Positions 3,973-62,719 of a DNA stretch of 64,000 bases are shown here, one piece after another. Position 1 is the stretch's first letter, and every line of letters starts with the position of its first letter. The stretch is from Amphiura filiformis (taxonomy: Eukaryota; Echinodermata; Ophiuroidea; Amphilepidida; Amphiuridae). The DNA is taken from positions 70,840,058-70,904,057 of the forward strand of contig NC_092635.1 of assembly GCF_039555335.1 (NCBI RefSeq), written 5' to 3'. The notes below the pieces were generated by a model. That model saw only the letters and a program-made list of their open reading frames with translations, was not told the origin of the DNA and did no database searches. The translations under genes were made by a program, and so were the position numbers.

Positions 3973-3996
3973 TGTAGAAAATAACAGTAGAATATT

Positions 3997-35740: not shown

Positions 35741-37070
35741 GAGCTCTCATCTGATACCAAATCAGCATTTTGATGAGGTAAAGTGGGGGGGGGGGGGATG
35801 AGATTGTCAATCAATTAATACATTATTGTCATCCGAGGTCAAATGTCATCAGGCAGAGGTCAACTGAGATCAAAGGTCATATGGGGTCAACGGGATAGGC
35901 TTAACTCGGTCCACCAGTTTGCGGTGCAATAACCGCTCTTGTTTTATCAAATTGTATTAATAATTGTGAAAACAAGACACAATTTCAATGCTAGATATTG
36001 ACATTTTGGTATAGGTATAGCATAATATCAAAAATAATATTTGGAATAAATATAATTTTCTTACACTAATGAGGAAATGAACTACAGAATACAGATGGAG
36101 GACACTTTCGATCCGAACAAAAAATGCTGGATATTCTGGTACAAAGTACTTGCTCTATAAAAATGTCAACGAATTGTGTATGCGATTCTTCCACTTTTTA
36201 ATCATGCCAATTTCCTCAATTCTGGCCGTGCCCTTTGTTTGATTCTGCATCAGAAGTTGAAAAGAAAGGTTAGGCTTTTGTGACTGAGGTTGCGTGTCAA
36301 TATAAAACATTTTCATATTATATCTTTTTCTTATAATTTCCTCTTTATCGGTTAAAATTTGCCATGACAACGGGTAGATAGACCATTAACGTTGAGGTAT
36401 AGGCCTAATTGATAGATTGAAAATAAGAATACAAACGTAGCCAGAGAATGTATATCTTACATCTGACATTTAAACCCGGGGGATATATAATAAAGCAGAT
36501 TGAACGATATGTTGATGTTCAACGATGTTTTATTGACATATATATTTTTATGTCAATAAAACATCGTTGAAAATCTCCATGTCGTTCCATCTACTTTATA
36601 TTTTTATCATGCGATGTCACGTGGGAACCTTTACTTTTATGTAAATCCGGGGAATATTTTGATTTTGGACTGGGCTGTGATTTGCGACTCCAAAATCGTA
36701 CCCCAACTATAAATACCAATTTGATCGAAAAAGACACTCAAATAATATGAATTGTCTGGACATTAAAATGTTTACCAACTTTTGGAGAATTTTGCTTTGA
36801 TTTTCCCAGAAATTTGCTGTCAAATTCAGGAAATTGTTCGCAAAATTTGTTGAACAATTAGCACTTTTTCGATATTTTATTGAGAAAAACTTGAACTTAA
36901 CCACCCCTTCTCTAAACATTCTTTAAAAAATATACACCCCGTATTTAAACCTAATATCCTGAAAATACACCCGAAGCTGACGCACATCTCCATACCCGCC
37001 TTTCCACTAAGAAACACCCACCGGACAGCCAATTACTATAATCAGAGCCACTCACGTTATTCATGTAATA

Positions 37071-37162
37071 ATATAAATCACAGCATAAATAGATAAGGAC
37101 ATAGATCGCGCACTTCGTATAATTTCTAAGCATCAAAATCTTGTAAGAAATCCATTGAGAAG
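37071..37162 (+). promoter_or_regulatory. Promoter region of receptor E
   Basis: TATAAATC at about 37071 and ATAAATAG at about 37085 precede the ATG of the proposed first coding exon by roughly 80-90 bases. The same arrangement is duplicated at 54928-55018. It does not resemble the TTCAC.ATCAT promoter of A-D, so the cluster has two promoter types. The start point is not determined. Confidence 0.45.
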
Positions 37163-37184
37163 ATGGGGAATAGCAATGTTAGAG
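37163..37184 (+). CDS. Receptor E, proposed first coding exon
   Basis: Encodes MGNSNVR plus one base before the donor AGAG|GTGAGTAAG (37185), a near-consensus site. Joined to the acceptor at 39406, the reading frame continues through D-NSNTTV into MSDVPQAL of the receptor exon (phase 1). It restores a glycosylated N-terminus (NSN and NTT), which is otherwise lost because exon 2 of E lacks the ATGGA start of the other genes. The same phase holds independently for F and G, which supports the model. The intron would be 2222 bases. Confidence 0.65.
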
Positions 37185-38768
37185 GTGAGTAAGATATTAT
37201 AAATCTGTTTCCAAAGACGTGTGATTTTTTATGTGCAACTAACCAATAATGATTTAATCCAAAGAGCTTTCAATAGAAATAGAGTCGCAATAGATTATAT
37301 AATGCTTTGTTCGTTTGATGCCGATTAGAAGTTGCGACAGGCTATTCATAAAAGTGGTACCATTGTTTCAAACAAAGGGGTTCCGCCATTAAATCGGTTA
37401 CTGATCCGGCATCATATTAACGCTCTACACAACAGACGAGTATCAATAAGTGACCACAATACAGTCATGTGTAAGGGCAGTCGTGTGTAAAGTGGTACCA
37501 TTGTCCCCACGTACCCCAAATGTGTGCTTGTGTGGTCTGAAGTCTATAAAGGAGGCTTTAGCTGTCGATGCAATCATCTTTACCACCCACCTGAAATTAG
37601 GCGCTTCATTTAAATAACTTGAATGCTCTTGCTGATCGATTACACATTAGAATGTACGAAGGCTGCCATTTCCACATATCTATATTGCACTATAATGGTA
37701 ATCGCTATACGTATACAAGCAAGTATAAGTATAGGCCTATAAAGGTTGTTTTTAAGAAATTTCCATTTAATTTTATTTTAAGGAGATTGGTATAGAAACA
37801 ATTGCGTACCCAAAGAGGGGAGGGGTTGGGAAGGGGCAGATTCACCCCTGTGAGAAGTCTTGGGAGGGGAGGAGGGAGGAAGAGGGGAGGAGGGTATATG
37901 GATAATGAGAGAGGGCTGGAGGAAGGAGAAATGAAAAGATATAGGCCTAATAAAGACAATAGATAAATTGAAATATTATAAGGAAAATGATGGGAATGAG
38001 AGAGGGAGGGTGAGGGAGTGATAAAGTGTAGTATAGTAAAGGCATAGTAAAGAATAAGTAAAGAGAAGGGAAAAGAAAGGAATGATGAATACATTAAATA
38101 ATTATTATTAGGCCTAAATAACTAAACACATAAAAGCACTGGGCAGCCATTGGATGATGTCAATGCCTTTATTCGTTACGTAATTAAAACGCCCAGTAAG
38201 ATGTATTTCACACCTACCAAACACAACTCACCCAATTTCGCAAACTGGACGTCTCATGAATATTGATTGGCAACATTTTCCAATATGTCAGCGCTCTAAT
38301 CGGAAACAATAGAACAATAGACCCTGCAGAGCGTTGGTCACACCCAATGTAACAAAAGAAATGAAGAAGAAAACAGGTGAGCATTAACAAAGTAAGAAAG
38401 CAAAATAAAAAGCTATAGAATTAGAAAATCAATGAAGTTACTGGTCAGAAAAAAATATAGGGTGAAACAAAATATGAGCAAGAAATACAAATACATAGGG
38501 TGTAAAAAAAAAAAAATAAGCAGCATTAATTTTAAACAAATCCAAATTGTCTAAGAACTCTCATCAAGCACACAAAGGGGAAAGAAAAGACAGGTGCAAA
38601 ATATTGATTGCAAAAAATGATCCCAAACTAAATTTTGTCGCCCTCTTTTGACAACCCAATTAATTTAAATCTCCTCCAATTTAAAATGAGGGCAGTATAC
38701 CTGAAAATTTAATAGTGCTGCTCAGAGGGTGAGAAACCTGAACAAAATGCAAAACCCAATTCGTAACA
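37185..38768. other. Intron of receptor E, first part
   Basis: Contains a purine-only-like tract at about 37810-38070 (GGGAGGGGAGGAGGGAGGAA and similar), which could form triplex or other non-B DNA. No other gene is seen. Confidence 0.5.
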
Positions 38769-39110
38769 ATATTAGTGTGGTTGAAGTAGTCATCTACTGC
38801 TGATATTAGTGTGGATAAAGTAGTCATCTACTGCTGATATTCGTGTGGACAAAGTAATCGTCTACTGCTGATATTAGTCTGGACGAAGTAGGTAGTAGTC
38901 ATATCCTGCTGAAGTAGTCACCTACTGCTGATATCAGTCTGGACGAAGTAGCCATCTACTGCTGATATCAGTCTGAAGTAGTCATCTCCTGCTGATATAA
39001 GTCTGGACGAAGTAGCAATCTACTGCTAATATCAATCTGAACAAAGTAGTCAACTATTGCTGATATTAGTCTGGACGAAGTATCCATCCACTGCTGATAT
39101 TCGTCTGAAC
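38769..39110. repeat. Degenerate minisatellite in the intron of receptor E
   Basis: About ten copies related to the 34-bp unit at 33123, with TCTGGACGAAGTAG variants and several shortened units. The equivalent place in F's intron has the same array (43873-44135). Confidence 0.85.
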
Positions 39111-39406
39111 AAACTAAACCTTTTATTTTTTTTAACTAAAACTTTTATTTTTGATTCCTGTGTTTAAAATTTTTGCAACTTTTTCAGCACCCGTACAGGT
39201 ACAACCCCCATTTGAAATTCACACTCCCTGTTTGGAAGATTACGGGCCTCATCGTCTCTTCCATTTCTAAATGTTGTTTTTATTATTATGTTATTGAAAT
39301 GAAGCTGAATTGAGAGCTTTAATGGAACCGCTTCCTAAGAAAAAAACCTTTACTAGTGAGTATTTAATTTATAATGAAATATTTCTTCTTTTTCTTTTCA
39401 ATACAG

Positions 39407-40410
39407 ACAATTCCAACACAACAGTCATGTCTGATGTCCCCCAAGCTTTAGTGACAACTTTGGTAGTTATCATGGTCTTTGTGGCCATAACTGGAACATT
39501 GGGAAACACCCTCGTCATCTTGGCTGTTGTGGCTCATAGGAAACTTCGAAGTATTCATAATATCTTTATTATCAATCTTGCTGCTGCTGACATGATCGTT
39601 ACTGCGGTTATTATTCCATTCGGAATTGTTGGTGCAATAAAGAAAGAATCATTTTTCACCGAACACAATGCATTATGTGAGACTATGGCAGTTTTAGTTA
39701 ATGTTAGCTGTATTACATCAATGATTTCAATCGCTAACATATCCCTAGATCGGTACATTTGTATTTGTCACAAGAACATATATCCCAATATCTACAATAA
39801 GTTAACTGTTCCATTTATGGTTATGGGTATGTGGGTATACTCATTCGTTGTCGATTTACCAAATTTTGACTTTGTTGGTTGGGGAGAGCATGACTTTAAT
39901 CTAAAATCAAATATATGTTCATTTTCTGCAACGAAGGCAGCAGAATCGGGATATATATGGTTTATATTTGCATTTTCGTGGGGAATATCGTTCGTCATGA
40001 TATCTTTTTGTTATTCACGTTTATATTTGTTTGTTCGCCGCACTAGGAAAGCTGTTACCCTCAATTCTGCAGGAAACCCCTCAACAGGAATCAAATCGGT
40101 AGACAAACGCCTACTGAAAGTTTTCGGTATCATCATTATTTTATTCGTTATCATGTGGGCTCCGTTTTGTCTCCTTAGCATACTTGATACCTATGTCGAA
40201 GCACCTTACTGGCTGCATTTCTTATCACTTCTTCTTTGTCTTTCAAACAGCTCTATCAATGCCCTGGTGTACGCATTTAATAAAGACTTTCGCAAAGGTT
40301 ACATATTTGTTTTTAAGAAACTTACTTGCAAGAATGACACCCAAGAACACGAAGAAGGAAACTCAGGAGTTAAAAGAAGCATCGTAAATATTAGTACCAC
40401 AGTAGTTTGA
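39407..40410 (+). CDS. Melatonin-receptor-like class A GPCR (paralogue E), main exon
   Basis: Carries all seven TMs. The acceptor TCTTTTCAATACAG ends at 39406. With exon 1 at 37163 the protein is 341 residues; without it translation could begin only at MSDV (39427), giving 327 residues with no N-glycosylation site. Features: GN, LAAAD, Cys pair, LDRYICICHKNIYPNIYNK (Lys to Asn within the loop), LPNFDFVGWGEHDF, MWAP, and INALVY in TM7, the closest match in the window to the NAxxY of melatonin receptors. Helix 8 is NKDFRKGY. Third loop short (TRKAVTLNSAGNPSTG). Closest relative is F, including flanks, so E and F are a recent tandem pair. The 3' UTR is replaced 25 bases past the stop by a 587-bp element. 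Confidence 0.87.
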
Positions 40411-40434
40411 AAAGTATTTTAATCAGTACAGTCC

Positions 40435-41021
40435 CTCAAACACGGCCTTTGATGTTTTATGATCGTTATGCGACAATGTCGATCATCTATTTTAAAATTT
40501 AATTTAAACCGACCCCCCAGGTGACCCGTACCGGAAATGGATGGTATTAGTGCCCTTTTGCATCGGTCACTTGTTCTTCGATTGCGTCATTGTGTTTCCG
40601 AGTTCAAGTAGACTTACTAGCGAAAACCTGATCGAATTCCCTCATTTCCTTTTAAAGTTACGGTGAATTTATGTATTTTTTCTGATTATGATTAGTAATA
40701 CTGGCGGATGCCTGCGGGACTTTTAAACCAGTGAAATTGATTTGGAAAGGTTTTCCAAGACTGGCAATGTTGTTTCTACGATCTGCCAAGCTTGGCCATA
40801 AGAAATATTGGCGTTATAAAATTACCGGAAATAAATTGTTTTCCTTTGTTTATGGTCACGGCCACAATGCTTTGTGGGTAAAAATGACGTCATTCAGCTT
40901 AGAAGTCGCGATAACGGTGGTTCATAACCGGCCACGCTCAATAGATAAGAAGCTTAGCAAATCGATAGTGCACCATTCATACCTGATTGCTCAGTATCGA
41001 CTCATAACGAGCATAGTAAAA
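40435..41021 (+). repeat. 587-bp element just downstream of receptor E
   Basis: Reverse complement of 34541-35127. The paralogous flank of F (about 49650-49680) passes from GAAAAGTATTTTA directly to CACCTGTAGCAT, showing the element was inserted here after the E/F duplication. It begins 25 bases after the E stop codon and so would form most of E's 3' UTR. Target duplication not clear. Confidence 0.85.
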
Positions 41022-41459
41022 GTTCTTAAGTACCTAGTAGCATGATAACAAAATGAACGATAATGCTCATAATATACATAACTGCAAAATATTCCGACAT
41101 ATTGTTACTGAATGTCAACATAATCAACATTTGATCCCTAGATGAGCTTTTTTGTCATATTCCCCTCATATTGAAGATTATTTTCACATATACATGTAGA
41201 TGTCTCATTTTGTTTGTGAATTTTCTCAAGCATCCTATGTATAAAGACGTACTATTGAGCACTGTATAGAGCTCTGTATTTGATAAATCTACTTCTTAAT
41301 ATTATACACGTAGTTGACAAAAATATTTTTAAATATCTGTTCACCTTGACTTTCTAATTTGTGGCGAGTTAAAACCGTCACCCCAAATAAATGATGAAGG
41401 TACGGGCGATAACAGACACAGTACGGTGAATACGCTAGTTGATCGTGATCGTGATTATT

Positions 41460-41690
41460 TGAGTCTATTGGAGTTTTAGCTGTTGTTAGCTGTGTAACAA
41501 CAAGGATTGTAATCGCCAACATAGCCCTACATCGGAACATTTGTATTTGTCGTACGAACATCTATTCAAAGTTCTACAATCAGTCAACTATATATAATTC
41601 CATTTTTGGTTATGGGTGTGTGTTTCTACTCATTTCTTGTTGATTTACCAAATTTACACTTTCTTGATTGGGGAGAACATGACTGGGATA
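41460..41690 (+). pseudogene. GPCR array relic, TM3-TM4 fragment
   Basis: Reads GVLAVVSCVTTRIVIANIAL then HRNICICRTNIYSKFYN, aligning with TM3 and loop 2 of the array. The DRY motif is HRN, frameshifts follow, and a second frame gives FLVDLPN and a GEHD-like end. The rest is missing; homology stops where a MITE begins at about 41690. It lies 3' of E and is a dead partial gene. Confidence 0.8.
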
Positions 41691-42043
41691 CAAAACCGAC
41701 GATCAATTGAAAATTTTGACCTTTTGTATTGAAGATATGGATTTTCCCCCAAAACACCAAAAACAAATTAGGCCTTTTTGGGTCAAAATTTTCAATTGAT
41801 CGTCGTATTTTCATCCCAGCTACATACACTTCAAGTACATATCATTACATTTAGATATCAAAAATATAAAAAAATATTCAATTTTAATAATTTGTCATTA
41901 AATTTGTATTATATGACGAATGTCAAAAATCAAAATTATTTGATATCAGAAGGACATTCCTCGTATTCAGAATTCAATTCGATATGTCTGATGTGCTCTC
42001 ATGTCCCACACAAAATACTGTCGAAACATTCATACCAGAGCCC
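41690..42043. mobile_element. Left-truncated TTAA-type MITE abutting the relic
   Basis: Contains the family's centre (GACGATCAATTGAAAATTTT and its complement), the right arm with GATATCAGAAGGACATTCCT and TGCTCTCATGTCCCACA, and a right TTAA at 42044-42047. The left arm is missing at the junction with the GPCR relic. Confidence 0.7.
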
Positions 42044-42047
42044 TTAA

Positions 42048-42593
42048 ATGAACAACAAGTCAAGAAGGTCCTCGTACCATGTGAATCGCAGACGCAGATG
42101 ATTTCAGTAAAATCTTTTCACAAAAATCACCCCTCCCTTTTCTCACAATATGTCAACCTCGACCCATTTCCAAAAACACATACCCACAACTTACCACTGA
42201 CAACCTCTCCAACCACCACTCTCAACCGGTTGAACGGGCCAACCAGCTATTCAGAATCTGTAGACGAATATAAACTATCGATGGCCGTTCCTTCTATATG
42301 ATAGAAATAGCCGACCTCGTAAAATATTTTTGTTTTAAATATTATTCTAAAAGTTGGAGCTATTTGTTATGTTAACTTTTGCTCCAATTGCGAAAAACGC
42401 GGCGATTGGTATAAAATAATTATTGTATGTATAAGACTTGGTCGTTCAATATTTTCGCATACGTACAAAGCATATGTATGATGGTAAAAACATCTCGGGT
42501 GTGTATGTATACCAAAATAAAATCGAGAACTGTCGGTGGGAAAATAGGTGAATCACGTATAGGCATGACTTTTCTGAAATAAATGTTGATTAA
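42048..42593. other. Non-coding, nothing recognised
   Basis: No gene or long repeat seen between two MITEs. Confidence 0.3.
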
Positions 42594-43155
42594 GGGATCG
42601 AATATCAACGTTTGTGCAGTATTTTTGTGGGACATGAGTGCACATCAGACATATCGAATTGCATCCTTCTGATATTTAGTAATTTTGATTTTTTGAAATT
42701 GGCGATGTAAAACACATTTTATGGCAAATTATTAAACATTTATATTTTTTTAATTTTTCATAATTATTTAAGAGTTCTCGAAGAAAAATGATAAAACTGA
42801 TATGTATTTAAAGTGTATGTAGTTTGGAGAGAAAAAGCCGACGATCATTTGAAAATTTTGACATTCTGTATTGAAGATATACATTTCCCCTCAAATTTTG
42901 TATGTCTTTTTGGGAAAAAATGTACATCTTTAATACGAAAAGTATAAAATATCATTAAATATATATATTTTACTTCGAAGCTGTTACATATAAAATTTTA
43001 ATTTGGCATAAAATTTGTATTATAGCGTGAATTTAAGAAAATTAAAAATTATTTGATATCAAAAGGACATTCTTCGTATTCAGAATGCAATTCGATATAT
43101 CTGATATGCTCTCAGGCCCCACACAAATGCTGTGCAAAGGTGGCTGACCGACCCC
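42594..43155. mobile_element. TTAA-flanked MITE, long form
   Basis: TTAA at 42590-42593 and 43156-43159. Left arm CAGTATTTTTGTGGGACATG, right arm CTCAGGCCCCACACAAATGC, and a central palindrome with GCCGACGATCATTTGAAAAT. Same family as 29479-30104. Confidence 0.78.
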
Positions 43156-43713
43156 TTAAATGGATTTTGTTGCAATTAGGGGTGGTTTAACCCCTTATTT
43201 TTTCTTAATTTGACTGGGCTATTATGGTTATTGAATTGCAGTTTCCTCATATTGATAAGATTGTTGAGCTAGCTTGGGTCATTAAAAAGCCATACGCTGA
43301 TATGCTAGAACAGCGCAGAATCAAATCAGGCATATATTTTATTATGCTTGCAAAAAGGATGAAACGAAATGTTACTAATGTGCCAATGGGTTTCTGTGAT
43401 CGAAGTAGTGTCAAGGTAAAACATGTTCATAGTTATACCATTATCTCATGATTCCTAATTTCCCCTTCATTGGGTTTCTAATTTTGTAAAATACAATTCT
43501 GTCACGACTAAAAGTTGTCACCAAGGATATATTGACTTGAAGTTGTAACCAACGATAGATTGACCTAACATGCCTAAAGGCATATTATTTTTTATTGAAT
43601 CACGTGACATCTAAACGACTGGTAATTAAACCAGTGCAGTCATGATCAGTTAACACTATAACAGCAAAGTCTCGAACATCGTATTCTAAGGAGCAAACCT
43701 CGCAAGAAATCCA

Positions 43714-43750
43714 ATGACAAAATTAGAAGTGTCAGCAATTAGTGCTACAG
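43714..43750 (+). CDS. Receptor F, proposed first coding exon
   Basis: Encodes MTKLEVSAISAT plus one base before TACAG|GTACGTGAAT (donor at 43751). Joined to the acceptor at 48630 it continues in frame as D-NSNTTVMSDV, the same phase-1 junction as in E. The upstream AAGAAATCC is shared with E and G, but in F the start is an ATG nine bases further 5', because the E/G ATGGGG has been lost and an ATT became AATG. The intron is 4880 bases and contains a minisatellite and a LINE. Confidence 0.65.
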
Positions 43751-43872
43751 GTACGTGAATTTATTATCTATTTGTGTCGATGTTTTTCTTGTGATTTTTA
43801 ATGTGCAATCAATACTATGGTGAATTTTCTTACCAGTAAATTAAAAATCATGACAGTATTGAAACCCTTAGT

Positions 43873-44135
43873 CTACTGATATTAGTGTAGACGATGTAGT
43901 CATCGTCTGGTATTGTCTGCTGATATTACTCTGGACGAAGTAATAGTAATCATATCCTGCTGATTTTAGTGTGGAATAAGTAGCCATCTACTGCTGATAT
44001 CAGTCTGAAGTAGTCATCTGTTACTGATAAGTCTGGAAGAAGTAGCAATCTACTGCTGATATCAGTCTAAACAAAGTAGTCAACTGTTGTTGAGTCTGGA
44101 TGAAATATCCACTACTACTTGTATTCTTCTGAACA
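43873..44135. repeat. Degenerate minisatellite in the intron of receptor F
   Basis: About eight diverged copies of the 34-bp unit (CTGATATTAGTGTAGACGAT and similar), 120 bases downstream of exon 1. Same unit as 33123-33548 and 38769-39110. Confidence 0.8.
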
Positions 44136-44285
44136 AACTACATACCTTAAGAAACTTTTATGTGTGATTTCTGCTTTTAAAATTTTGTAACTTGTTCAGC
44201 AGCCATACAGGTAACCTCATTTGGAACCCACACTCCCTGTTTGGAAGAGTCGGGATCCGGTATTACGGGCCTCATATACCTTCCT

Positions 44286-47200
44286 GATTCATGATTACGA
44301 AAACTACAAGCAAATCTTCGAAAATACCGAGGGTAGATGAGCGGCAGTCTACTGTTGACTTCATGACGGACCAGCGGGAACTCGGCACACCATCACGAAC
44401 TGTTGGCCCTGATTATTGTCGCCTGTCTACCTTCAAACCTCTTGTAATATCTACTTATAATGTCCGTACTGTAAATCAACAAGGGAAAATGCATCCGCTA
44501 TTCATGGGCTGTGCTGATGCAGGTATTGACATTGCCGGAATTCAAGAACAAAGCCCAACCGATGAACTTTGGTCAGATGATAGGAACTGGGTTTTATTAT
44601 TCAGTTCTGCTACCAAGCAAAGGCACGGAGGAGTTGGTCTGGTAATGTCCAAGCACATTCACAGATGTCTTAAGAGTGTTGAAGCTGTTTCCGAGAGGAT
44701 ACTATTTGTAACATTCCATGGCAACCCTCAGCTCAGCATCACTGTTGTATATGCACCTACTGAGTGTGCAACATCTTCTGACAAGGAGGAATTCTATTCA
44801 TCTCTATCTGACCACCTGGATGGTATGAAAAGGCACAACATCCATCTCATCCTCGGCGATTTTAATGCCAGAATAGGAACAGACAGTCATCTTTCCCATC
44901 CTTGGGTCATTGGTCCGCATTGCTACCATGATTCAACAAGTGACAATGGTGAGCGTCTGGTCAACACTTGCCAGGAGTACAATCTCAGACCGGCCCAGAT
45001 GAGATTCCCGCAACCCAGGAACCGTCTCTGGACTTGGACCCATCCAGCTGGATCAACCCATGCACAGTTAGATCACATACTAATAAACAGCAAGTGGGTA
45101 AATTCTCTCCGCAACTGTCGAGCATACAACTCAGTAGAAGTGGACTCCGATCATCGTATTGTGAGCATCCGTCTAGCTGCCAGTCTGCGAACTAGCAAAG
45201 GAAAACCTTGCAAGAGACCAAAATTCAACTGGAAGAAGTTGCAAGATCCTGATACAAAGGAGGAATTTCAGTTGGAGCTATCAAACAGATTCCAGGTCTT
45301 GAGCATGGATGACACCACACCCATCTCTGATAGGTATGAGACCTTCGAAACAGCGGTCCGTGAAGTTGCTGAGAAAGTTATTGGAAAACAAGAGCCATGC
45401 GGACTACCAAGTTGGGTATCAGATGCAACCATCAAACTTAAACTTGAAAGGGATGAGGCCAAAAAGCGGTACTCCATTTCAAAGTCTCGTCAATCTAGAG
45501 AAAGATGGAGGAACTTGAACACCAGCCTTAACAACTCGTATAAATCTGATGACCTTGCTACCCTCAATAAGCAAATGGAAGACCTGAAGCTGGCCGACGA
45601 GATGGTGAATTATACCACCACCTGGAAAATTATACACTCGCTTTCTGGGAAGAACTCAAGGAAAGGGGTGAAAGTCAAAAAGAGAGATGGATCAGCTCCA
45701 ACCAGTGACCATGAACTGCTTGAGGAATGGAAGGAATATTTTAGCTCACTCCTTAAGGTAGCTGTGTACTCTCAGATACGCATGTAGTAAAAGTGCCATA
45801 ACTTTGTAATTATTCACGCAAGACATGTAAAAGTATACATTTTTATAAAGACAAGACATCAATAAATCTCAATATAAGTACAGTTTTGGTGTAAAAACAA
45901 CAATTATGAAGAAAATCACAAAAAAGGGAATTTTTGGCAATTTTTGTTCGGTACATCATAACAAAAAAACACTCTTTCCAAAAATTTTTGTTTTGCTTTT
46001 TTCTTAGTGTTGAGGCACCATTCCAAAAACGGTTTTTTAGTTTTTTGATATTGGCCTTATTTTTGGAGATATTGACCATATAAGGCATCAAAATGAACTT
46101 TTTAAGATTCACAACCGCCTATTTGCACAAAATGATGCCTAAAATTGGAAATAGACCAAAATATAAAAAAATGAGAAAACCGTTTCTTAAGTCAATCATG
46201 TTTTTTATGATGAGCATAATTTCTTATGCTGTATTTATTGAGTTATCGTGTACCTAAATCGTCATTTTACCGAGAAAATGAACATTGAAATAAAGGCCGT
46301 TGAAGTTTAAAGTGGTCACATTTTGCACTTTGATCGAAGCTTACAGGAGAATGCGGCAGTTCTCGTTTTTCTACCTTACATTACGTGAACATCGGGTAAA
46401 TCCACAACCCCTTGAGAAGTTTGGGCGAAATCTATTCATATCTTGATGTTTAAATCGGGGGAAAGAACTTGAAAAAAATCACATTTTATCAGCTAAAACG
46501 GAGCCATTTGACCGCTAGGTTTTTGTGAAATCAGTGCTTCCGTGGTGTTTCCATAAGTTGCGCCACGCATGCAGATAAGCGTCGCGTATGCATAGCGTAT
46601 CTGTGCGTTACCAAATTGCGCGATACGCAACGCGATGCGTTGTTGCGCGCGTGTAACCTGCTGGTACAACAAAGATTTTCTTTCCTTTCAAATTTCAAAC
46701 ACGAGTGGAATAGTGAAATAAAATCCTTAAAATATTGCAGTTGGAGTTTTTAAATCTGGATTTTTTTTTTTTGTTTTTATAAAAAACATAACAAAGTACA
46801 AACATATAAAAAAACCCTCAATTTCGCGAAAGAAACAATGTCTAGAGTACACAGCCGCGTTAACAACGACAGTGGCACAGCAGCTTCAGAACTTCCTGCA
46901 CCAGCTGTTGAAGATCTTCCTATTATCACTGTGCCCCCAACTCGTGAAGAAGTAGTCAAAGCAATATCAGTCATGAAGACCAACAAGGCAGCAGGATTGG
47001 ACTGTGCTATAACTGCAGAAGCACTTCAGGGAGGAGGGGAGAGCATGATTGATATGATTCGCGAATTCTGTATGGAAGTATTCTCAACGCTGACACCGCC
47101 ACGTCAATGGGTTACGAATGTAATCATTCCTCTACCAAAGAAAGGTGACCTCTCTCTCATGACAAACTACCGTGGTATTTCGCTTATGTCCATTGCCGCA

Positions 47201-48470
47201 AAAGTGTACAACAAGATCCTTCTGAACAGGATCCGACCCCACATTGATCCTTTACTGAGAAGCAACCAGGCTGGCTTTAGATCGGGTCGCAGCTGTGCTC
47301 AGCAAATACACATTTTGAGGAGGATCATGGAAGGCTTCAAGGAGTACCAACTTCCCTTAACAGTCACTTTTGTGGACTTCAAAAAGTCTTCGACTCCATC
47401 AACAGGTCCGCCATGTTTTCAGTGCTGCGGCATTATGGAATACCAAAGGTTGTGGTCAATGCCATCCAGGTGCTCTACAAAGACTCCAATAGTGCCGTTA
47501 TGGTAGATGGCAGTATCTCAGAGCCTTTCCAAGTAACAACTGGAGTGCTTCAGGGTGATGTGTTGGCACCATTCCTGTTCATTATCCTGGTAGACTACCT
47601 TCTGATGAAATCAACTTCTGGAATTGACGCTGGAATTGTTACCTACCCACGTCGGTCAAGCAGGTATCCTTCCAAGATGCTGAATGACCTGGATTTTGCT
47701 GATGATATTGCCCTGCTGGAATCTTCCATAGACCGGGCCCAGTCACAGCTTACTAGGACTGCAACTGCAGCAGCAGATCTAGGCCTTGTCATCAGCGCAC
47801 CTAAGACAGAATATATGACTGCAAACTGTAACGCCCAACCAGCACTTGAAGTCTATGGTAGTACCATCAACCATGTCACAGACTTCAAGTATTTGGGTTC
47901 CAAGATGGGCTCTAGTGTTGGAGACCTAAAAAGAAGAAAAGCACTAGCCTGAGCAGCTTTCTGGACACTGGAACGCCTTTGGAGAAGCCCGTCCTTGCCA
48001 ATCGAAACAAAAATCAAGCTGTTTCAGACAACGTGTGTTACTGTCTTTCTGTACGGGTGCGAGTCATGGGTAATTACCAAGGACATGGAAAACAAGATCA
48101 ATGCATTTGCAACATCTTGCTACAGAGTCATGTTAAACATCAAGCGTGTGGATCGGATTCCAAATGAAACCATCTACAACCTGACCAACACCACTCCACT
48201 GGTTGCCAGAGTCAAGATTCATCAACTCAAATTTCTCGGCCATATACTGCGTCTTGAAGATGGCGAGCCTGTGAAAGAATATGCGCTTTGTATTCCACCA
48301 CATGGGAAGAGGAATCCGGGACGGCCACGCACACTGTACTTAAAGTATGTCCAGCACCTCCTGGGAGATACTGAAGGGATGCTGCAGCCAAACAAAATTG
48401 TTTCGCTTGCCCACGATCGCATTAGTTGGAGAAAGCTTGTAGTCGCCTGCTCCGCAGCCGACTGATGATG
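44286..48470 (+). mobile_element. RTE-like non-LTR retrotransposon (LINE), nearly full length, inactivated
   Basis: A single polyprotein begins at ATG 44291. Endonuclease (APE type): STYNVRT, IQEQ, LILGDFNARIG, LDHILINSKW, SDHRIVSI, in order over about residues 50-290. Reverse transcriptase: NYRGISLMS, QAGFRSGRSC, TFVDFKK, TGVLQGDVLAP, LDFADDIALLE, GLVISAPKTEYM, FKYLGSKM. The C-terminal tail ends VVACSAAD, then GATGATGAT. Breaks: a 1103-bp insertion after 45756, a one-base frameshift near 47385 just after FVDFKK, and an in-frame TGA at about 47950. Element without insertion is about 3.08 kb, normal for RTE. Flanking ATACCTTCCT (44276-44285) and ATATCTTCCT (48471-48480) are a probable target duplication with one mismatch. 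It sits in the intron of F; the same site is empty in E (about 39250). Confidence 0.9.
45757..46859. mobile_element. TTAA-flanked element inside the LINE
   Basis: TTAA is at 45753-45756 and 46860-46863. Inverted ends: GCTGTGTACTCT (45761-45772) against AGAGTACACAGC (46844-46855). No transposase motif seen. Element plus one TTAA is 1107 bases, and the LINE frame is the same on both sides. A piggyBac-like non-autonomous element is inferred. GC-rich CGCGATACGCAACGCGATGC repeats lie near 46620. Confidence 0.85.
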
Positions 48471-48630
48471 ATATCTTCCTATCCCCTCTTCCATTTCTCA
48501 GTCTTGTTTTTATATGTTTTTAAAATGAAGCTGAATTGAGAGTTTCAATGGAACCGCTTCAAGAAATGACCCACCCCTATAAGTTAGTAATTAATTAATG
48601 AAATGTTACTTCTTTTTCTTTTCAATACAG

Positions 48631-49628
48631 ACAATTCCAACACAACAGTCATGTCTGATGTCCCCCAAGCTTTAGTGACAACTTTGGTAGTTATCATGGT
48701 TTTTGTGGCCATAACTGGAACACTGGGGAATACCCTCGTCATCTTGACTGTTGTGGCTTATAAGAAACTTCGAAGTATCCATAATATCTTTATCATCAAT
48801 CTTGCTGCTGCTGACATGATCGTTACTGCTGTTATTATTCCATTCGGAATTGTTGGGGCAATAAACAAAGGATCATTTGTCACCAAGCACGATGCACTGT
48901 GTGAGACTATGGCAGTTTTAGTTAATGTTAGCTGTATTACATCAATGACTTCAATCGCCAACATATCCCTAGATCGGTACATTTGTATTTGTCACAAGAG
49001 CATATACCCCAAGATCTACAATAAGTTAACTGTTCCATTTATGGTTATGGGTATGTGGGTATACTCATTCGTTGTTGATTTACCGAATTTTGACTTTGTT
49101 GGTTGGGGAGAGCACGACTTTAATCTAAAAACAAATATATGTTCATTTTCTGCAACGAAGGCAGCAGAATCGGGATATATATGGTTCATATTTGCATTTT
49201 CGTGGGGAATATCGTTCGTCATGATATCTTTTTGTTATTCACGTTTATATTTGTTTGTTCATTGCAGCCGGAAAGCTATTACCCCCAATACCACAGTGAC
49301 AGGAAACCCCACAACAGGAATCAAATCGGCAGACAAACGCCTACTGAAAGTTTTCGGTATCATCATTATTTTGTTCGTTATCATGTGGGCTCCGTTTTGT
49401 CTGCTCAGCATACTTGATACCTATGTCGAAGCACCTTCCTGGCTGCATTTCGTATCACTTCATCTTTGTCTTTCAAACAGCTCTATCAATTCCCTGGTGT
49501 ACGCATTTAATAAAGACTTTCGCAAAGGTTACATATTTGTTATAAAGAAACTTACTTGCAAGAATGATACCCAAGAACACGAAGAAGGAAGCACAGGAGT
49601 TAATATAAGTATCGTAAATACTGAATAA
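48631..49628 (+). CDS. Melatonin-receptor-like class A GPCR (paralogue F), main exon
   Basis: Acceptor TCTTTTCAATACAG ends at 48630; with exon 1 at 43714 the product is 344 residues. Without it, only the ATG at 48651 (MSDV, 325 residues) is available. Nearly identical to E through TM7. Notable differences: INKGSFVTKHDAL in loop 1, an FVHCSRKAI third loop (Cys in place of the Arg-Arg pair), SINSLVY in TM7 (Ser in the NPxxY proline place, Ala in E), and FVSLHLCLSN before TM7. DRYICICHKSIYPKIYN, MWAP and NKDFRKGY are conserved. Intact frame. The 3' flank shows the original sequence into which E later acquired a 587-bp element. Confidence 0.87.
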
Positions 49629-50052
49629 TATCACAGGGATGTGAAAAGTATTTTACTCTAAAGCACCTGTAGCATACTGCAATATATTCCGACATATTGT
49701 CACTAAATGTCAACACAATCAACATTCTTATTCATTTAGTGCGTCTTGTAAAGAAAGCACGCAATTTGATCGCTTTTCTGGTGTATAGTATCACACAATA
49801 GTGGATATAGTGATATTAGTCAGGGCGCGCGCCACGACGCAACGGCTTGTTGCTCCTCAATGATCGCGCGATATTGCTTCGCGTAATACACGTGCGAGAG
49901 CTAAGAACGCGGTTTGGCGGCTTAGATGTTTTTGATGGTTGCGTTCATTTAATTAGAACAATTTAAAACAGGATGTCTTCGCAAAAGTAACTTTTTTTTT
50001 TCTAAAAAAAAAGTTTTCCTCACAAAAATTAAATTTAAACTGAATAAGAAGA
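49629..50052. other. 3' flank of receptor F
   Basis: Matches the 3' flank of E (TATTCCGACATATTGT, AAATGTCAAC), confirming a common duplication. No further gene. Confidence 0.45.
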
Positions 50053-50180
50053 AGAATAAAATATAGGATTTTATATTTTGCCTATCCAATATCGTGTCAT
50101 AATGGATGGGCTGGCCAATATTTTTTTATCGTAGTAACACCATATTGGATAGGCAAAAGACAAAATCCTATCTTTTATTC
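50053..50180. repeat. Foldback with GCCTATCCAATAT arms
   Basis: GAATAAAATATAGGATTTTA ... GCCTATCCAATAT pairs with ATATTGGATAGGC ... TCCTATCTTTTATTC, arms of about 40 bases. A small MITE or hairpin. It interrupts sequence shared with the E flank (GATCCCTAGATGAGC at 41136 and 50193). Confidence 0.65.
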
Positions 50181-50335
50181 TCTAATTTGATCCCTAGATG
50201 AGCTTTTTTCTTCTTCATATTCCCCTCATATTGAAGATTATTTTCACCAATTCAAAGGTCGACAGACGCAGCTCATTAGTTTAGTATTTATATAGATGTA
50301 GCTATTTATGCCGTAAACAGCCTCAAAGCGCTTGT

Positions 50336-50568
50336 ACCTGAGCGCAAGAAGACCGTAAGTCCAATTGGCCTCTCATCATGTATACACTCAAGTTGCGTAT
50401 AGTTTCGTATAGTTTGTTCAGGGGCCAAAACAAATCTTTCACAACCTTTCATGATGTTTTCACCCTGGAACAAGTATTAAACATTATAAAACCCTAAGAA
50501 ACTATACGTAACTTTAGTGTATACATGTTGAGGGGCCAAGTGGACTTATGGTCTTCTTGCGCTCAGGT
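50336..50568. mobile_element. MITE with ACCTGAGCGCAAGAAGACC ends
   Basis: ACCTGAGCGCAAGAAGACCG at the left pairs with GGTCTTCTTGCGCTCAGGT at the right, and arms continue through TGTATACACTCAAGTT / AACTTTAGTGTATACATG for about 70 bases. Confidence 0.7.
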
Positions 50569-51168
50569 CTATACATGTAGGTGTTTACTGTCTCATTCGG
50601 TTTGTGAATTTTCTCAAGTATCGGTTAGTATCCTATGTATATAGACGTACTAATGAGCAGTGTATAGCTATTTTGATAAATCTACTTATAGATATACACG
50701 CAGTTAACAAAAATATTATTAAATATCTGTTCACCTTGACAAATACGGGAGATAACAGACACAGTACGGTGAATATGCCACGTGATTTCACACCACCAAA
50801 TAGTAGTATATGGTTTTGCGCCCTTAAATTTCGATTCTTAGAAAAAAGTAAAGAATAAAATGAGCAGAAATTTGCATACGACGTATACGACCCACTTTTG
50901 AAGACTGTGAATAAGCAACACCGGAAACCACTCAAACCAGTCTCCTGGGAAAAGTGTATCAGATGACCATGTCAGTCATACCTGGTGAAGTCCTCCGATG
51001 CGAAGGACAAAATATTGTAGTGAGGTTTGTCAAGCATATGTCATTTCGTTTAGTTTGCCAACTTTATGCTCATTTTGTTAGAGCTGGTCATAGTGAGTTC
51101 TGAACCCTCAATGTATTTACTTTCTCTTTGCAATTCCAATAATATCCAATGATTGCATTTTAGTACAA
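50569..51168. other. Non-coding, E/F-flank homology
   Basis: 50690-50800 matches 41310-41450 downstream of E (AAATATCTGTTCACCTTGAC, GATAACAGACACAGTACGGT). No gene is seen. Confidence 0.4.
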
Positions 51169-51172
51169 ATAT

Positions 51173-52260
51173 TGTTACGAGTCGTACTTCGACTCAAGGC
51201 CAAAATCACCTTTTACCCGAACTCACACGAATGCACAACACAAATGCACTGTTTGATTAAGCTAACATAATCTAAGTCTTTAATTGAAAACAAAGTATGC
51301 TTGGTACATATAACAACAATTACAATAAAATCACACAATGACAGTTTTATTCTATTGGTACTTAACCAGCGGTCTTCTTGTTGGTGATTCTAGAGTTCTT
51401 GCAATGTTCTGGACGACTGATGTAATATATCCTTATTCACTTGTCCTGCGAAAATCAGCGAAGTCCATAGTACACTTGCATTTATAAATCCTTGCGTATA
51501 AAATCCTCATACGAAAATGATGCTGCTTTCTTCTATTGCTTATCTTCTTGTGCTGCTCTCTCCGCAATATATCTCTTTGTGCTGCTTTCTCCAAAATGGT
51601 GTTTCTTTCACCAATCACTCTTTTTCCAGGGAACAGGTTTCTTTAACACAGCTCCGCTATTTTTGACAGATGCGTGGCCTTCACAAACTCAGCAAACTCC
51701 AGCAATTTGACAGAAGAACTTTTAATCCTTTTATGAGGAAGAGCACTTTTGTGTGCTCGCTGTCTTCTTCGTTGCTGTATTAAATTTAGCTCAATTATTG
51801 GCTATATAAACTGGTTAAAATGTACTTCTTTTTGAAGCACGAAGACCATCACACACATGTGGAGTTTTCAATCTCCCATGACATTCTGTAAAGTCCCAAC
51901 AAAACCTCCAGCTTTTTTATATCAGTACTCATGCAAAAACCCATCATCTATTAATAAACCATTACTTCAATCACATTTTCACAACATTGCTGCAATCTTG
52001 GGATTTCCCAAGATTAATTATACACATTCACATTACATCACTTCCTGGGGGTTTTCCTGATGGTGCAATAATGAACTGGGGCTTTCCAAGTTCCAAACAT
52101 AGCTCTGACTTTGTTTACAATAATTTTGGGGGAATTCCAAAACGACTTTCCACATCATTATCTTGCACGTACAAGGGGTTTTCCCATCTCATGACATACT
52201 TTCAGCTTGTAAACAAAGTTAAATAATCAAATTAAATTAAATTACTCAGGACACATCACA
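51173..52260 (-). mobile_element. Probable solo LTR of a Gypsy-type retrotransposon
   Basis: The 1088 bases begin TGTTACGAGTCGTACTTCGA and end ACACATCACA (TG...CA on either strand), flanked by ATAT on both sides (51169-51172, 52261-52264). Read on the minus strand it has TATATAG near 51800, then AATAAA near 51350, and ends ACTCGTAACA, the usual LTR order. No gag-pol frame or second LTR is present. The 4-bp AT-rich duplication carries little information, so this is a moderate call. Confidence 0.5.
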
Positions 52261-52449
52261 ATATTCAATATTATAAATATTCAAATTCATTCCAAGAGCA
52301 ATTCAAATAAGCAATTCTTGCACAAATTGCTGGTGCTGATCTGACCGTTGCTTATACTGTGCACATTACAAATACGAGAAAAAAAAGGAAGCTTCACAAG
52401 CAGAGAGATATGAGGCGTTTACCTTTAGAAAATATTATGAATTGTTATT

Positions 52450-55120
52450 ATACATCTGAAATCATATCCAATTCAGAGTACATCTTACGACCTCAGCAAG
52501 ATAAAAAATTTTGACCATGGCCAATCCTACTAAATAAATATCTGATATTGCACTTAATTACTTCTGAGCGAAAAACATTCAAAATATCGTCATGACATTA
52601 TTAAAATAACGTCTAATAACGTCTAATTCAATAACGTCTTCAACATTCTGGTATTTTGTTAAAATGTAAAGCAGCATTGCGAAATAAGTAATGTAAGCAA
52701 AACAGTAAGTAAGAAATCACTTCTTACAAAAATTAAAAAATCGTGTTTTGTGTGTGTACTTTTTTTTTAAATGTAAGATGTCTTTTCTTAGCAAATGAAA
52801 ATCGACATTTGTAAATGTAAGAGGCAATTGCAATTTCTTGCCAAATGTAAAATGTAAAAAATAATTTCTTACAAAATCAAAGTCACATTTTGAAAGTGAA
52901 ATTGGAGGTAAATTCTTACAAATATAGTATTACGAGACCGATTTGTGGGAGGCGTACTGTAAGAACGTTTGTGACGATACAATGAATATTAGTTTTTTTG
53001 AACATTATTAGTGGTAGTATTAGAGAAACTGTACCCATGAAAACCATTCGCTGGCGAAGTGATGTAATAATCGGATTAACTACCATAGCAATATAGGGTA
53101 AAACTATTTTTGAATATACCGCATTTCACTAGTACGTTCACGCGGTACCTCTGCATTGAACCATATCATGCTGATCACTCGCTCCTATAACATTAGTATC
53201 TTTGAAAAGAACGGTATTTTATTCAATCTATGATTGCAGACATGCACAGGTGATGAGTGCAACCTGCTTTTAGTGAAAAGCATTGTGCATTTTTTAGTGG
53301 AAACATGAGAATTTCCACACACGTTGTACAAGGTGGATTTGAAGATGTGGAGCCATTTTGGATTTGACCCCTGGTGACCGTTAGAGGTCACGAAAGGTCA
53401 TACAGGGGTAGAAAATTAAAAAATACTCCGTCGACGCTTAATCTTGTTGATGGATATATACTAGTCTGATCACAAGGATAAAAAAAATGTTTAGTTTGCG
53501 TTATCTACGACCTTTATGGAGTTTTCGGACAAAAACCTCATTTTCGGGTAAAATTGTACGTTTTTTTGTTATACAGGGTTAAAACATTTTCAGATTTTGA
53601 CATATACGATGTCAAATTGTGCGTCTTGACAAAAGAATCAAGAAATGGTACAAATCTCAGTATTGTCAGTTAAATAAGTAAAACATGAATAATTGAATTA
53701 ATTAATAAAATAATTAATGTCATCCGAGGTCAAATGTTATCAGGCACAGGTCAACCGAGGTCAAAGGTCATATGAGGCCAACGGGATAGGCTTAACTCGA
53801 TCCACCAGTTTGCGGTGCAATAACCGCTCTCTTGTTTTATCAAATTTTATTAATTGTGAAAACAAGACAAATTTCAACTTTATGCTAGATATTGACATTT
53901 TGGTATAGCATAATATCAAAAATAATATTTGGAATGAATATTATTTTTTTACACTAATGAGGAAATGAACTACAGATGGAGAATACTTTCGATCCAAAAA
54001 AAAAGCTGAATATTCTGGTACAAAGTACTTGCTCTATAAAAATGTCAACCAATTGTGTATGAGATTCTTCCACTTTTTAATCATGCCAATTTCCTCAATT
54101 CTGGCCGTGCCCTTTGTTTGATTCTGCATCAGAATTTGTTGAAAAGAAAGGTTCGGCTTTTGTGATTGAGGTTGCGTGTCAATCTAAAACATTTTCATAT
54201 TATTTCTTTTTCTTATATTTTCCTCTTTATCGGTTAAAATTTGCCATGACAACGTGTAGACCATAACGTTGAGGTATAGGTCTAATTGATAGATTGAAAA
54301 TAAGAATACAAACGTAGTCACAGAATGTATATCTTACATCTGACATTTAAACCCGGGGGATATAAAACAGATTGAACGATATGTTGATGTTCAACGATGT
54401 TTTATATGTGATGTCAATAAAACATCGTTGAAAATCTCCATGTCGTCCCATCTACTTTATATTTTTTTAAATTTTATTTACTTTTATGTAAATCAGGGGA
54501 AGTTTTTGATTTTGGACTGGGCTGTGATTTCCGACTCCAAAATCGTACCCCAACTATATAGCAATTTGATCGAAAAAGACACTCAAATAATATAAATTGT
54601 CTGGACATTAATAAAATGTTTACCAACGTTGGGAACATTTTGCTCTGATTTTCCCAGAAATTTGCTGTCAAATTCAGGAAATTGATCGCAAAATTGGCTA
54701 AACAGTGAACAATTAGCACCTTTTCGATATTTTTATTGAGAAAAACTTAAACTTAACCACCCCTTCTCTAAACATTCTTTAAAAAAATTATACCCCGTAT
54801 TTAAACCTAAGATCTTGAAAATACACCCGAAGCTGACGCACATCTCCATACCCGCCTTTCCACTAAGAAACACCCACCGGGCACCCAATTACTATAACCA
54901 GAGCCACTCACGTTATACATGTAATAATATAAATCACAGCATATAATAGATAAAGACATAGTTCGCGCACTTCGTATAACCGTAAGCATCAAATTTTTGC
55001 AAGAAATCCATTGACAAGATGGGGAATATCAATGTTAGAGGTGAGTAAGATATAATCTGTTTCCAAAAACGGGTGATTTTTTTATGTGCAACTAACCAAT
55101 GATGATTTAATTTAATTGTA
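52450..55120. repeat. Segmental duplication, copy 2 (carries exon 1 of pseudogene G)
   Basis: Collinear with 33600-37200, without its three insertions. It includes the hairpin TTCAACGATGTTTTA / TAAAACATCGTTGAA (about 54395-54435; counterpart 36518-36575) and the promoter/exon 1 block ending GGTGAGTAAGAT. Confidence 0.85.
55019..55040 (+). pseudogene. Exon 1 of pseudogene G (or orphan duplicate exon)
   Basis: Encodes MGNINVR with donor AGAG|GTGAGTAAG at 55041. It would join the acceptor at 56842 in phase 1 (G+CT, Ala). Because the segment was copied from the E neighbourhood while exon 2 of G is divergent, it may instead be an orphan first exon that landed upstream. Confidence 0.5.
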
Positions 55121-55475
55121 ACCAGGTTCAAAACTACATAAAAGTACAATGCAATGAGGTATGTCGGTTTTCCTATATCCTGACTTGAAAGTAAATTATT
55201 AAAGCAAACTTCTGACGGAATATTCTAAAAGATTTTCAGAATTTTAGTGTTTGGAAAAGTTTAAAGCCCCACAAAATGAGAAATTCATTTATTCATGTAG
55301 CTGCATGTAAATAACAATAAAATAATTATGAAATTATGAAATTGACTTTTTAGCATTCCATTTAGAACACATTTATCATATATGAATATCCACTCGTACA
55401 TTTATCATTGTTTGCAGACGAAAATTGACGAAATTGGAGAAAAGTTTGAAATAAAATTAAAGACTTTTTGTATTT

Positions 55476-55755
55476 ATGGGTAATTACCAAGGACATGGAA
55501 AACAAGATCAACGCATTTGCAACATCTTGCTACAGAGTCATGCTAAACATCAAGCGTGTGGATCGGATTCCAAATGAAACCATCTACAACCTGACCAACA
55601 CCACTCCAAATTTCTCGGCCATATACTGCGTTTTGAAGATGGCGAGCCCGTGAAAGAATATGCGCTTTATATTCCACCACATGGGAAGAGGAAACCGGGA
55701 CGGCCACGCACACTGTACTTTCAGTATGTCCAGCACCTCCTGGGAGATACTGAAG
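55476..55755 (+). mobile_element. LINE fragment, truncated at both ends
   Basis: Matches the LINE 3' part starting at ATGGGTAATTACCAAGGACA, the same point as the copy at 21802. It has an internal deletion after ACCACTCCA (about 30 bases) and stops in GGGAGATACTGAAG, before the usual 3' end. No GATGAT tail and no target duplication seen. Confidence 0.85.
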
Positions 55756-56169
55756 TGATCAAACGCCAGTAGAAATAATGTAAAACGCTGAAGTTTGTTC
55801 GGCTTATGCGAAAATTATTCGGTTTTTGTTACTGCGCGCGTCACGTCAATAAAGTCTCCCAAGTCAAGCTCGCGTAAATTCACATAAGCTTGAGCATCAG
55901 CGGTAACTTCACCCTGATGTGGCAGAGACGTCAACGCATCTATGCGGCGTCTTTAAGCGGGTGTGCGTGTACACCAGCGCTGTTAGCGAGCGCTGTTAGC
56001 GAGCGCTAGCGATTTAAGGCTGCGCCAATGCGCACTGGCGTCACTGCCACATCAGAGGAAACACGGTATAAATAGAAGTTGCCATGAAATCAACTGGTTG
56101 TGATTTGCCGCTACGGCATGCTAGCGACTTGTGATCGATAATCGGCAATCGCTTCGTTGTTCAATATGA
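55756..56169. other. GC-richer block with short inverted repeats
   Basis: CTGATGTGGCAG (about 55915) pairs with CTGCCACATCAG (about 56044), and GCGAGCGCT is repeated tandemly between them. Possibly a small foldback element. No gene. Confidence 0.4.
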
Positions 56170-56640
56170 TTATACAGACTTGACGTTTAGTATGGAATCT
56201 GCATAAACCGCACGGGCTAAATATTAATTCGGGGTGTGTCGGGAGATGGTGTTAAATAATTGTTTGATAGAATGTGCTTTCCATAAGTTTATATATGTTG
56301 CTGATAATGTAGCAAATTTGCCTAAAATGACGGATTTAGGAAGGCTGAATTTGTGCTTTGTGGGGGACACAATTTCGGACTTTATGCATCATTGTTGTTT
56401 TGTTATTATCAAATTTATTGGGGTTTTTGAGGTGATATTTATAAACTACATCAACGATTAGCATTCACCACAGCTGAGATACACTTGCAATGTACCAATT
56501 TTTTAAACATGGGAGGAGCCTAAAATATGGCTCTTAAAAGTAGTATGTACGCAGAAAGTTTGAATGGCCCCATGGGGTCAAATGTTATAAACTTACGGCA
56601 TAAAAAACAACTGCGCGGATTCCTGGTTGTCCAATGAAGT
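56170..56640. mobile_element. Partial copy of the 24764-25664 MITE
   Basis: Starts TACAGACTTGACGTTTAGTA and continues through GTGTGTCGGGAGATGGTG; homology ends near the AACTGCGCGGATTCCTGG segment. The right half is missing. Confidence 0.7.
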
Positions 56641-56684
56641 CACGCTGCTTCTTTGGATTTGGATTTCTCTTTAATTTTTTAAAA

Positions 56685-56811
56685 TAAACTGGCCTCAAAA
56701 AGAAACTTACAATTTTTCACAAGGTCATATCTTAAAATTCTGTCTATAAAAATGAGGGTTTTAAGATATGACCTTGTGAAAAATTATAAGTTTCTTTTTG
56801 AGGCCAGTTTA
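56685..56811. repeat. Long hairpin abutting the splice acceptor of G
   Basis: TAAACTGGCCTCAAAAAGAA ... AAGGTCATATCTTAAAA is followed after about 18 bases by its near-perfect complement, giving a stem of about 53 bases. It ends 31 bases before the acceptor of exon 2. An apparent in-frame extension of the G reading frame into it is an artefact of the repeat. Confidence 0.8.
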
Positions 56812-56842
56812 CTTTTATTTTTTATCTTTATAATTATTTCAG

Positions 56843-57731
56843 CTTTCGGTTTGTGCGGAGAAAGGAAATCACCATGGTTGAATACCTCTACCAATGTGGA
56901 TATTGCCACTGACACACCGGTGTCGTTAATGACAACTATTGCTATCATAATGTCTTTTCTGGCCTTGATTGGAACTTTTGGAAATATCCTGGTCATCAGT
57001 GCTGTTGTTGTATATCATAAACTACGCAGCGTTCACAATGTTTTAATTATAAACTTAGCTGTCGCAGATTTGATCGTCACGACAATGATAATCGTTGCTT
57101 CACTAACTGTCATCAGCTGCATTACGTCAATATACTCCATCACCAATATAGCTGTAGAACGATATATTTACATGTGTCACAATACTCTTTATAACAAATT
57201 GTATACCACAATTACTATTCCCTTAATGGTTTTCTGTTCATCGGTTGGGGAAAGCATGGGTTTACACCAGAGACGCAATCCTGTACTTTTCACATTGAGA
57301 AAGCAGTAAATTCTGGATACATCTGGTTTCTCATCGGTTGTGGCTGGGTCATCTCTTTTGCTACCATTTGTTTTTGCTACACACGGCTTTACATGTTTGT
57401 GCGTCAAGGGGCTATTGCCCAAAAAACCGTTAAGGTATCGTGTGTAAGTCTACCAGCACCACGAATCAAGGCAGCTGATAGAGAACTGGTAAAAATCCTG
57501 GCTTTCATCGTGGTGTTTTTTCTCTTGATGTGGACGCCGTTTTCGTTCTTCAGTATTTTGAAAGCATGTATTGATGTACCACATTGGGTACTCTTTGTCA
57601 CTGGGCATTTGTGTCTTGCTAATAGCTCCATCAATTTTATGATCTATGCGTTTAGTAAAGATTTCCGAGATGGGTATCAGCTCGTGTTCAAGATGTTAAG
57701 AGGACACCGTGGAAGAGACTTGCAAGTTTAG
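56843..57731 (+). pseudogene. Melatonin-receptor-like GPCR paralogue G, multiply damaged
   Basis: After the acceptor TAATTATTTCAG the frame gives an N-terminus with an NTS site, TM1 (GTFGN), loop 1 (YHKLRSVHN) and TM2 (NLAVADLIV). About 25-30 residues are then missing, including PFA, loop 1 and the disulfide Cys. TM3 with VERYIYMCHNTLYNKLY follows. Most of TM4 is lost near 57235 together with a frameshift, and the rest (GWGKHGF, SGYIWFL, FCYTRLYMFV, IKAADRELVK, MWTPF, INFMIY, KDFRDGY) continues in another frame to a stop at 57731. ERY, RDGY and MWTPF group it with H rather than with A-F. It is not expected to make a receptor. Confidence 0.82.
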
Positions 57732-62697: not shown

Positions 62698-62719
62698 AAA
62701 ACAGATCCACACGCACAGA

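Follow-up and report, generated by a model that had tools for sequence, protein, structure and literature searches.

Two melatonin-receptor-like genes of the ophiuroid Amphiura filiformis appear to have lost the start codon of their receptor exon and probably use one in an upstream exon

Among olfactory receptor genes, 13 human and 41 mouse loci have been described in which the coding sequence is split over two exons, and some of these loci counted as pseudogenes before their initiator ATG was located in the exon upstream (Barnes et al. 2020, PMC7055050). The same paper describes 23 independent events in mouse, with the intron situated mostly in the N-terminal domain or in helix 1. Here we consider a similar arrangement in a stretch of 64,000 nucleotides (nt) from Amphiura filiformis (contig NC_092635.1, positions 70,840,058 to 70,904,057), called the window below and numbered from its first base. 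The window is animal DNA by content, and its plus strand, on which all features lie unless stated otherwise, carries a tandem cluster of melatonin-receptor-like class A G-protein-coupled receptor (GPCR) genes, denoted A to H in the order of their positions. In two of them, E and F, the start codon has probably been deleted from the receptor exon (exon 2) and now most likely resides in an upstream exon, across an inherited intron. Gene G, to which the initial annotation had ascribed the same history, is not an example.

As in the split olfactory receptor loci of PMC7055050, we deal with a tandem class A family, a receptor exon without the conserved ATG, an upstream exon supplying an ATG, and an intron in the part of the gene encoding the N-terminal extracellular domain. 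Most likely, to judge by their predicted structure, E and F work like split olfactory receptor genes, in another receptor family; the arrangement itself is already published. There are two differences. The loci described in that paper are vertebrate olfactory genes with RNA and conservation evidence, whereas E and F are predicted from the sequence. Moreover, the events there are described as insertion of an intron into a reading frame, whereas the intron end of E and F looks inherited and what was lost is exon-2 sequence. The two genes provide a small, checkable case without intron gain, in which an intron of the 5' untranslated region (5'UTR) seems to have been turned into a coding one through deletion of the adjacent start codon. 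The practical side is that automatic annotation can miss the real N-terminus of a receptor, or take intact genes for pseudogenes because the receptor exon shows no ATG.

Two other systems are close in different respects. The first intracellular loop is where the coding intron of vertebrate melatonin receptor genes lies (Maugars et al. 2020, PMC7541902). E and F have the two-exon coding layout in common with the genes described there, and melatonin receptors are the best solved-structure match for A and E. However, in the cluster a single exon encodes all seven helices, and the intron lies within the N-terminus or ahead of it. The sensory GPCR arrays of echinoderms (surreal-GPCRs of sea urchin, and those of Acanthaster), as described in PMC5442662, are also tandem and rhodopsin-like, which is a likeness of layout.

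Exon 1 of E (37163..37184, 22 nt) starts with an ATG in a strong context (A at -3, G at +4) and ends at the donor GAG/gtgagt, the slash marking the exon boundary. Exon 1 of F (43714..43750, 37 nt) starts with an ATG in a weak context (C at -3, A at +4) and ends at CAG/gtacgt. Both donors are in phase 1. They are predicted to join exon 2 of the respective gene (39407..40410 in E and 48631..49628 in F), which encodes all seven helices and has no ATGGAA, the string present in A, B, C, D and H. The initial annotation had placed upstream ATG exons before E, F and G, and indeed the exons, their donors and the acceptors before 39407, 48631 and 56843 are there; the phase-1 joins of 37163-37184, 43714-43750 and, at G, 55019-55040 to exon 2 are free of stop codons. 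In the stretches scanned upstream of E and F there is a single donor each with the strong pattern (NAG/GTRNGT), and both have an open phase-1 ATG. The junction follows codon 7 in E and codon 12 in F, N-terminal to helix 1. Thus, at the level of sequence, both genes combine a receptor exon devoid of the family initiator with an in-frame ATG in an upstream exon, and they have the junction, the acceptor and the phase in common, while the positions of the initial Met are 8 alignment columns apart.

In the ordinary layout of the family, seen in A, B, C, D, H and the dead gene G, the intron ends 23-31 nt before the ATGG start of exon 2. In the genes with ATGGAA this string lies 31 (A), 31 (B), 30 (C), 30 (D) and 23 nt (H) past the acceptor. 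Measured from a shared anchor codon, exon 2 extends 70, 70, 60 and 69 nt in the 5' direction in A-D, compared to 17 nt in both E and F; hence the latter two lack 43-53 nt, the start among them. Over its last 55 nt, the E intron is similar to the 3' ends of the A, B, C and D introns (4, 4, 12 and 0 of 300 shuffles as good), but not to the first 65 nt of their exons 2 (95, 105, 125 and 157 of 300). The same holds for the last 55 nt of the F intron, with 1, 0, 18 and 0 shuffles of 300 for the intron ends and 265, 285, 234 and 95 for the exon-2 starts. Therefore the acceptor looks inherited, and has not slid downstream. In the tree, A-F are grouped with support 100/100, and G and H fall outside, being long branches in a tree that was rooted at the midpoint for drawing. 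Since H has ATGGAA and G has ATGG, loss of the start in E and F is simpler than gain elsewhere. By these alignments, E and F look to have kept a pre-existing 5'UTR intron and to have lost 43-53 bases of exon 2 together with the start codon. The claim that the ATG moved across an intron thus remains the best reading for E and F, but not for G, and even for the former two the word is imprecise: a deletion removed the exon-2 ATG, and E and F would use different ATGs. Exon 2 of both genes, judged by the nonsynonymous (dN) and synonymous (dS) divergence between them, is under purifying selection (dN 0.048, dS 0.131, dN/dS 0.37).

We also considered an old start hidden in the intron, as the string ATGGAACCG, resembling the start of B, occurs upstream of the acceptor in E (at 39322) and in F. 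This candidate was rejected because the intron ends of E and F align with the intron ends of A-D and not with their exon-2 starts. The MAFFT alignment of this region forced the pairing of intron with exon-2 start and was not used.

The case of G is different. Its presumed exon 1 (55019-55040, 22 nt, donor GAG/gtgagt) is part of a copy of the 5' end of E. The E block, formed by upstream DNA, exon 1 and 74 base pairs (bp) of the intron (35809..37258), is duplicated at 53696..55111, with 88.8% identity over 1,477 columns and two further short matches upstream. Exon 1 is identical in the two copies at 21 of 22 positions, and the first intron bases at 67 of 70. The match stops 74 (E) and 71 (G) bases inside the intron; in the receptor exons of the two genes, the parts that can be matched agree to only about 70%. 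Exon 2 of G (56843..57731) is a pseudogene. It has an ATGG at 56874, exactly 31 nt past the acceptor, as in A and B, but out of frame, and a frameshift later (frame 1, then frame 3 in tblastn). Given the copied E block and a frameshifted exon 2 with its own ATGG, G is an ordinary member of the family, now dead, with a stray copy of the E first exon upstream. Hence it has to be struck from the genes with a relocated start. Nor are there three independent frame matches, as had been argued, since the first exons of E and G belong to one duplicated block and those of E and F are homologous. At the same time, the block demonstrates that a promoter-side piece with a first exon may be duplicated without its receptor exon. 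Two repeats are seen at this locus: a 3' piece of a long interspersed nuclear element (LINE) between the exon-1 copy and exon 2 (55476-55759, 87.3% over 315 columns), and four tandem copies of a 76-bp unit, with 94% matches, that repeat the C-terminal end of G (57649-57950).

The homology of exon 1 in E and F is seen in the local alignment score of 46, reached by none of 500 shuffles, and in the score of 36 for a narrower stretch, reached by none of 300. The ATG of F is 8 columns upstream of that of E, and from there to the donor F contains 7 additional bases; the sum is 15, and the phase is kept. The identity of the two genes falls towards the 5' end. It is 936 of 988 aligned bases in exon 2 and 125 of 142 at the 3' end of the intron, compared to 25 of 33 in exon 1, with 8 gap columns, and 49 of 64 in the leader. 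This may result from gene conversion of the 3' part or from a higher rate of change at the 5' side.

The predicted first exons of A, C and D, with donors at 11405, 26415 and 30551 respectively, are also homologous to each other (A-C, 76.1% over 92 columns; A-D, 72.5% over 91; C-D, 73.7% over 495). There is no ATG in the scanned stretch of the A first exon, and the first exons of C and D have two ATGs each, stopped within the exon. The corresponding short upstream open reading frames have 4 and 4 codons in C (26345-26415) and 4 and 1 codons in D (30480-30551). The resemblance of B to A is limited to the DNA upstream of the donor, which makes it uncertain what the first exon of B is. By eye, the B equivalent of the donor of A, C and D is GAG/gtattc, and B may use the donor at 18670.

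Eight comparisons revealed no homology of exon 1 of E and F with the first exons of A-D, the shuffles that did as well numbering 20 to 176 of 200, and neither did twelve comparisons of the first exons of A-D with those of E, F and G (11 to 300 of 300). The lowest values of the latter set, 11 for B-G and 18 for A-G, are not matched by E or F. The divergence of the receptor exons is about equal for A-C (dS 0.51) and C-E (dS 0.52), yet the first exons of A and C do detectably match. With no detectable relation to the first exons of A-D, exon 1 of E and F probably comes from a new promoter and first exon acquired as a module. The search for relatives yielded 113 pattern matches in the genome_contigs scan, none of them confirmed, and none in the viral_contigs scan, these collections of prokaryote and viral sequences being little informative here.

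The history that we propose is as follows. In the lineage of E and F, the intron and its acceptor were kept, and 43-53 nt of the 5' end of exon 2, with ATGGAA, were lost, as seen in the alignment. A promoter with a first exon would have been acquired as a module; such a block was copied alone to the G locus. If the predicted splicing and initiation at the phase-1 ATG of exon 1 hold, the 5'UTR intron would have become a coding intron in the extracellular N-terminus. Exon 1 would then have diverged between the two genes: the alignment places the F ATG upstream and contains the extra bases restoring the frame, the order of these changes being conjectural. In F, leaky scanning to a Met in exon 2 is plausible. 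Less likely than not, though well worth considering, is a fuller sequence of events, in which the module was acquired, the exon-2 start was lost, and a second turnover of the start codon followed, so that the ATGs of E and F lie in different ancestral frames, compensated by the 7 bases. If this is true, one small cluster would display each step of start-codon relocation.

Several observations weigh against initiation in exon 1. The residues encoded by this exon differ between E and F, showing no conservation, and the F ATG is in a poor context. Both genes have a further Met codon in exon 2, which is in frame and flanked by G at -3 and T at +4 (39427..39429 in E, where D has ACG at the same site, and 48651..48653 in F). 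An in-frame ATG in the leader is not rare. We drew random stretches of 50-150 nt from the intergenic DNA of the window, 40,000 for each of five lengths, and an ATG open to the end in phase 1 was found in a fraction of 0.17-0.24 of the draws, the first ATG being such in 0.05-0.12. The chance for both E and F is then about 0.03-0.06 for any ATG, if the two are independent, which they are only partly. With 0.17-0.24 per leader and related exons, the two matches are weak evidence. Further, B has its start in exon 2 and yet is preceded by an open upstream ATG with the strong donor GTAAGT (18633..18670), in frame (phase 2) with exon 2; the context of this ATG is weak (T at -3, A at +4), and the pair may serve as a chance control or be a further candidate. 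In the test of upstream exons against seven acceptors, G's own being left out, exon 55019-55040 is in frame with exon 2 of H as well. Finally, the outgroup position of G and H, which makes the loss the simpler event, depends on long branches and the midpoint root. As for the donors, the strong pattern is sparse: it occurs in the 64 kilobase (kb) window 10 times on the plus strand and 5 times on the other strand, and in intergenic DNA 2 times in 69.7 kb, both strands counted.

The alternative that survives best is a start shifted downstream within exon 2, to the Met at 39427 in E and 48651 in F, with exon 1 forming the 5'UTR and its ATG being incidental or giving a minor long form. In its favour, this Met precedes helix 1 in both genes, with G at -3, and the weak context of the F exon-1 ATG and the frequency of in-frame ATGs in leaders point the same way. 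Still, we consider it unlikely. A start at the exon-2 Met would drop the N-glycosylation sequon carried by the N-termini of A, B, C and H, whereas the exon-1 start gives E and F one N-terminal sequon each. The sequon itself, N-T-T, is encoded by exon 2; hence exon 1 is not the source of a glycosylatable N-terminus, contrary to what had been suggested. Scanning ribosomes should take the first in-frame ATG with a strong context. The exon-1 ATG of E is the first, is in frame, and shares its context of A at -3 and G at +4 with the start codons of A, B, C and H (D has G at both positions), so its use is to be expected. On sequence grounds, E is likely to initiate in exon 1. For F this is somewhat likely, being less sure because of the weak context and the in-frame Met in exon 2.

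It is improbable that the upstream exons of E and F are chance pairs, and that the genes are transcribed from other first exons, such as one with the donor at 33639 for E, or from promoters internal to the intron. The donor at 33639, CAG/gtacgtag, is strong and situated between D and E, where no gene is recognised, and there is no in-frame open ATG within 120 nt of it; the frame of E is open through the intron end back to 39298, with an ATG at 39322. However, E and F are homologous not only in exon 1 but also in the leader and in the first bases of the intron. Six comparisons of the 33639 region with the first exons of the cluster produced 27 to 183 of 300 shuffles as good, compared to 0 of 300 in the controls C-A and C-D. 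As none of these matches was clear, the donor at 33639 was rejected as an older first exon of E. A minisatellite with a unit of about 34 bp is also situated between D and E (33173-33546).

Least of all do we expect that the copied exon 55019-55040 is used by H, skipping the dead G exon and lengthening the H N-terminus: the join 55040-62697 runs in frame, with no stop, into ATGGAA of H, and the scan, which scored the strong pattern and not weaker donors, found no such donor within 3 kb before exon 2 of H, but one join in three is in frame by chance, H owns an ATGGAA in a strong context, and its upstream DNA, in six comparisons with E, F and G in differing registers, weakly resembles exon 1 of E and F (2, 7 and 9 of 300 shuffles as good; the other three 32, 56 and 85), which hints at a first exon of its own.

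With the exon-1 start retained as the preferred reading for E and F, the rest of the cluster can be described briefly. A Pfam scan of A, B, C, E, F and H and of a 3' piece of G (D was not in the scan) gave 7tm_1 as the best family of each receptor exon, and no olfactory receptor model at E-values up to 0.001. Searches against solved structures (PDB) were made with A and E as queries. The best match of A is the MT1 melatonin receptor, with adrenergic receptors close behind, and that of E is MT2, followed by MT1. The receptor exon is open and contains all seven helices in A, B, C, E, F and H, and in D and G the reading frame changes within it. Exon 2 is located at 12096..13182 in A (ATGGAA at 12127), 19278..20349 in B (19309), 27621..28655 in C (27651), 30782..31770 in the frameshifted D (30812), and 62697..63745 in H (62720).

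Intron 1 of F contains a LINE-type element (44288..48465) with endonuclease and reverse transcriptase pieces; in Pfam, the endonuclease matches are just under the cut-offs and RVT_1 is above, and about 1 kb of other DNA lies between the two coding parts. Minisatellites related to the one between D and E are found in the first introns of E (38769-39107) and F (43978-44107). Long inverted copies of one element, seen by eye at 34500-35130 and 40425-41080, flank the E locus. Between E and F there is a frameshifted fragment of a further family member (41461-41704). A separate class A receptor is encoded on the minus strand at 2905-4152, its best solved-structure matches being opioid and galanin receptors.

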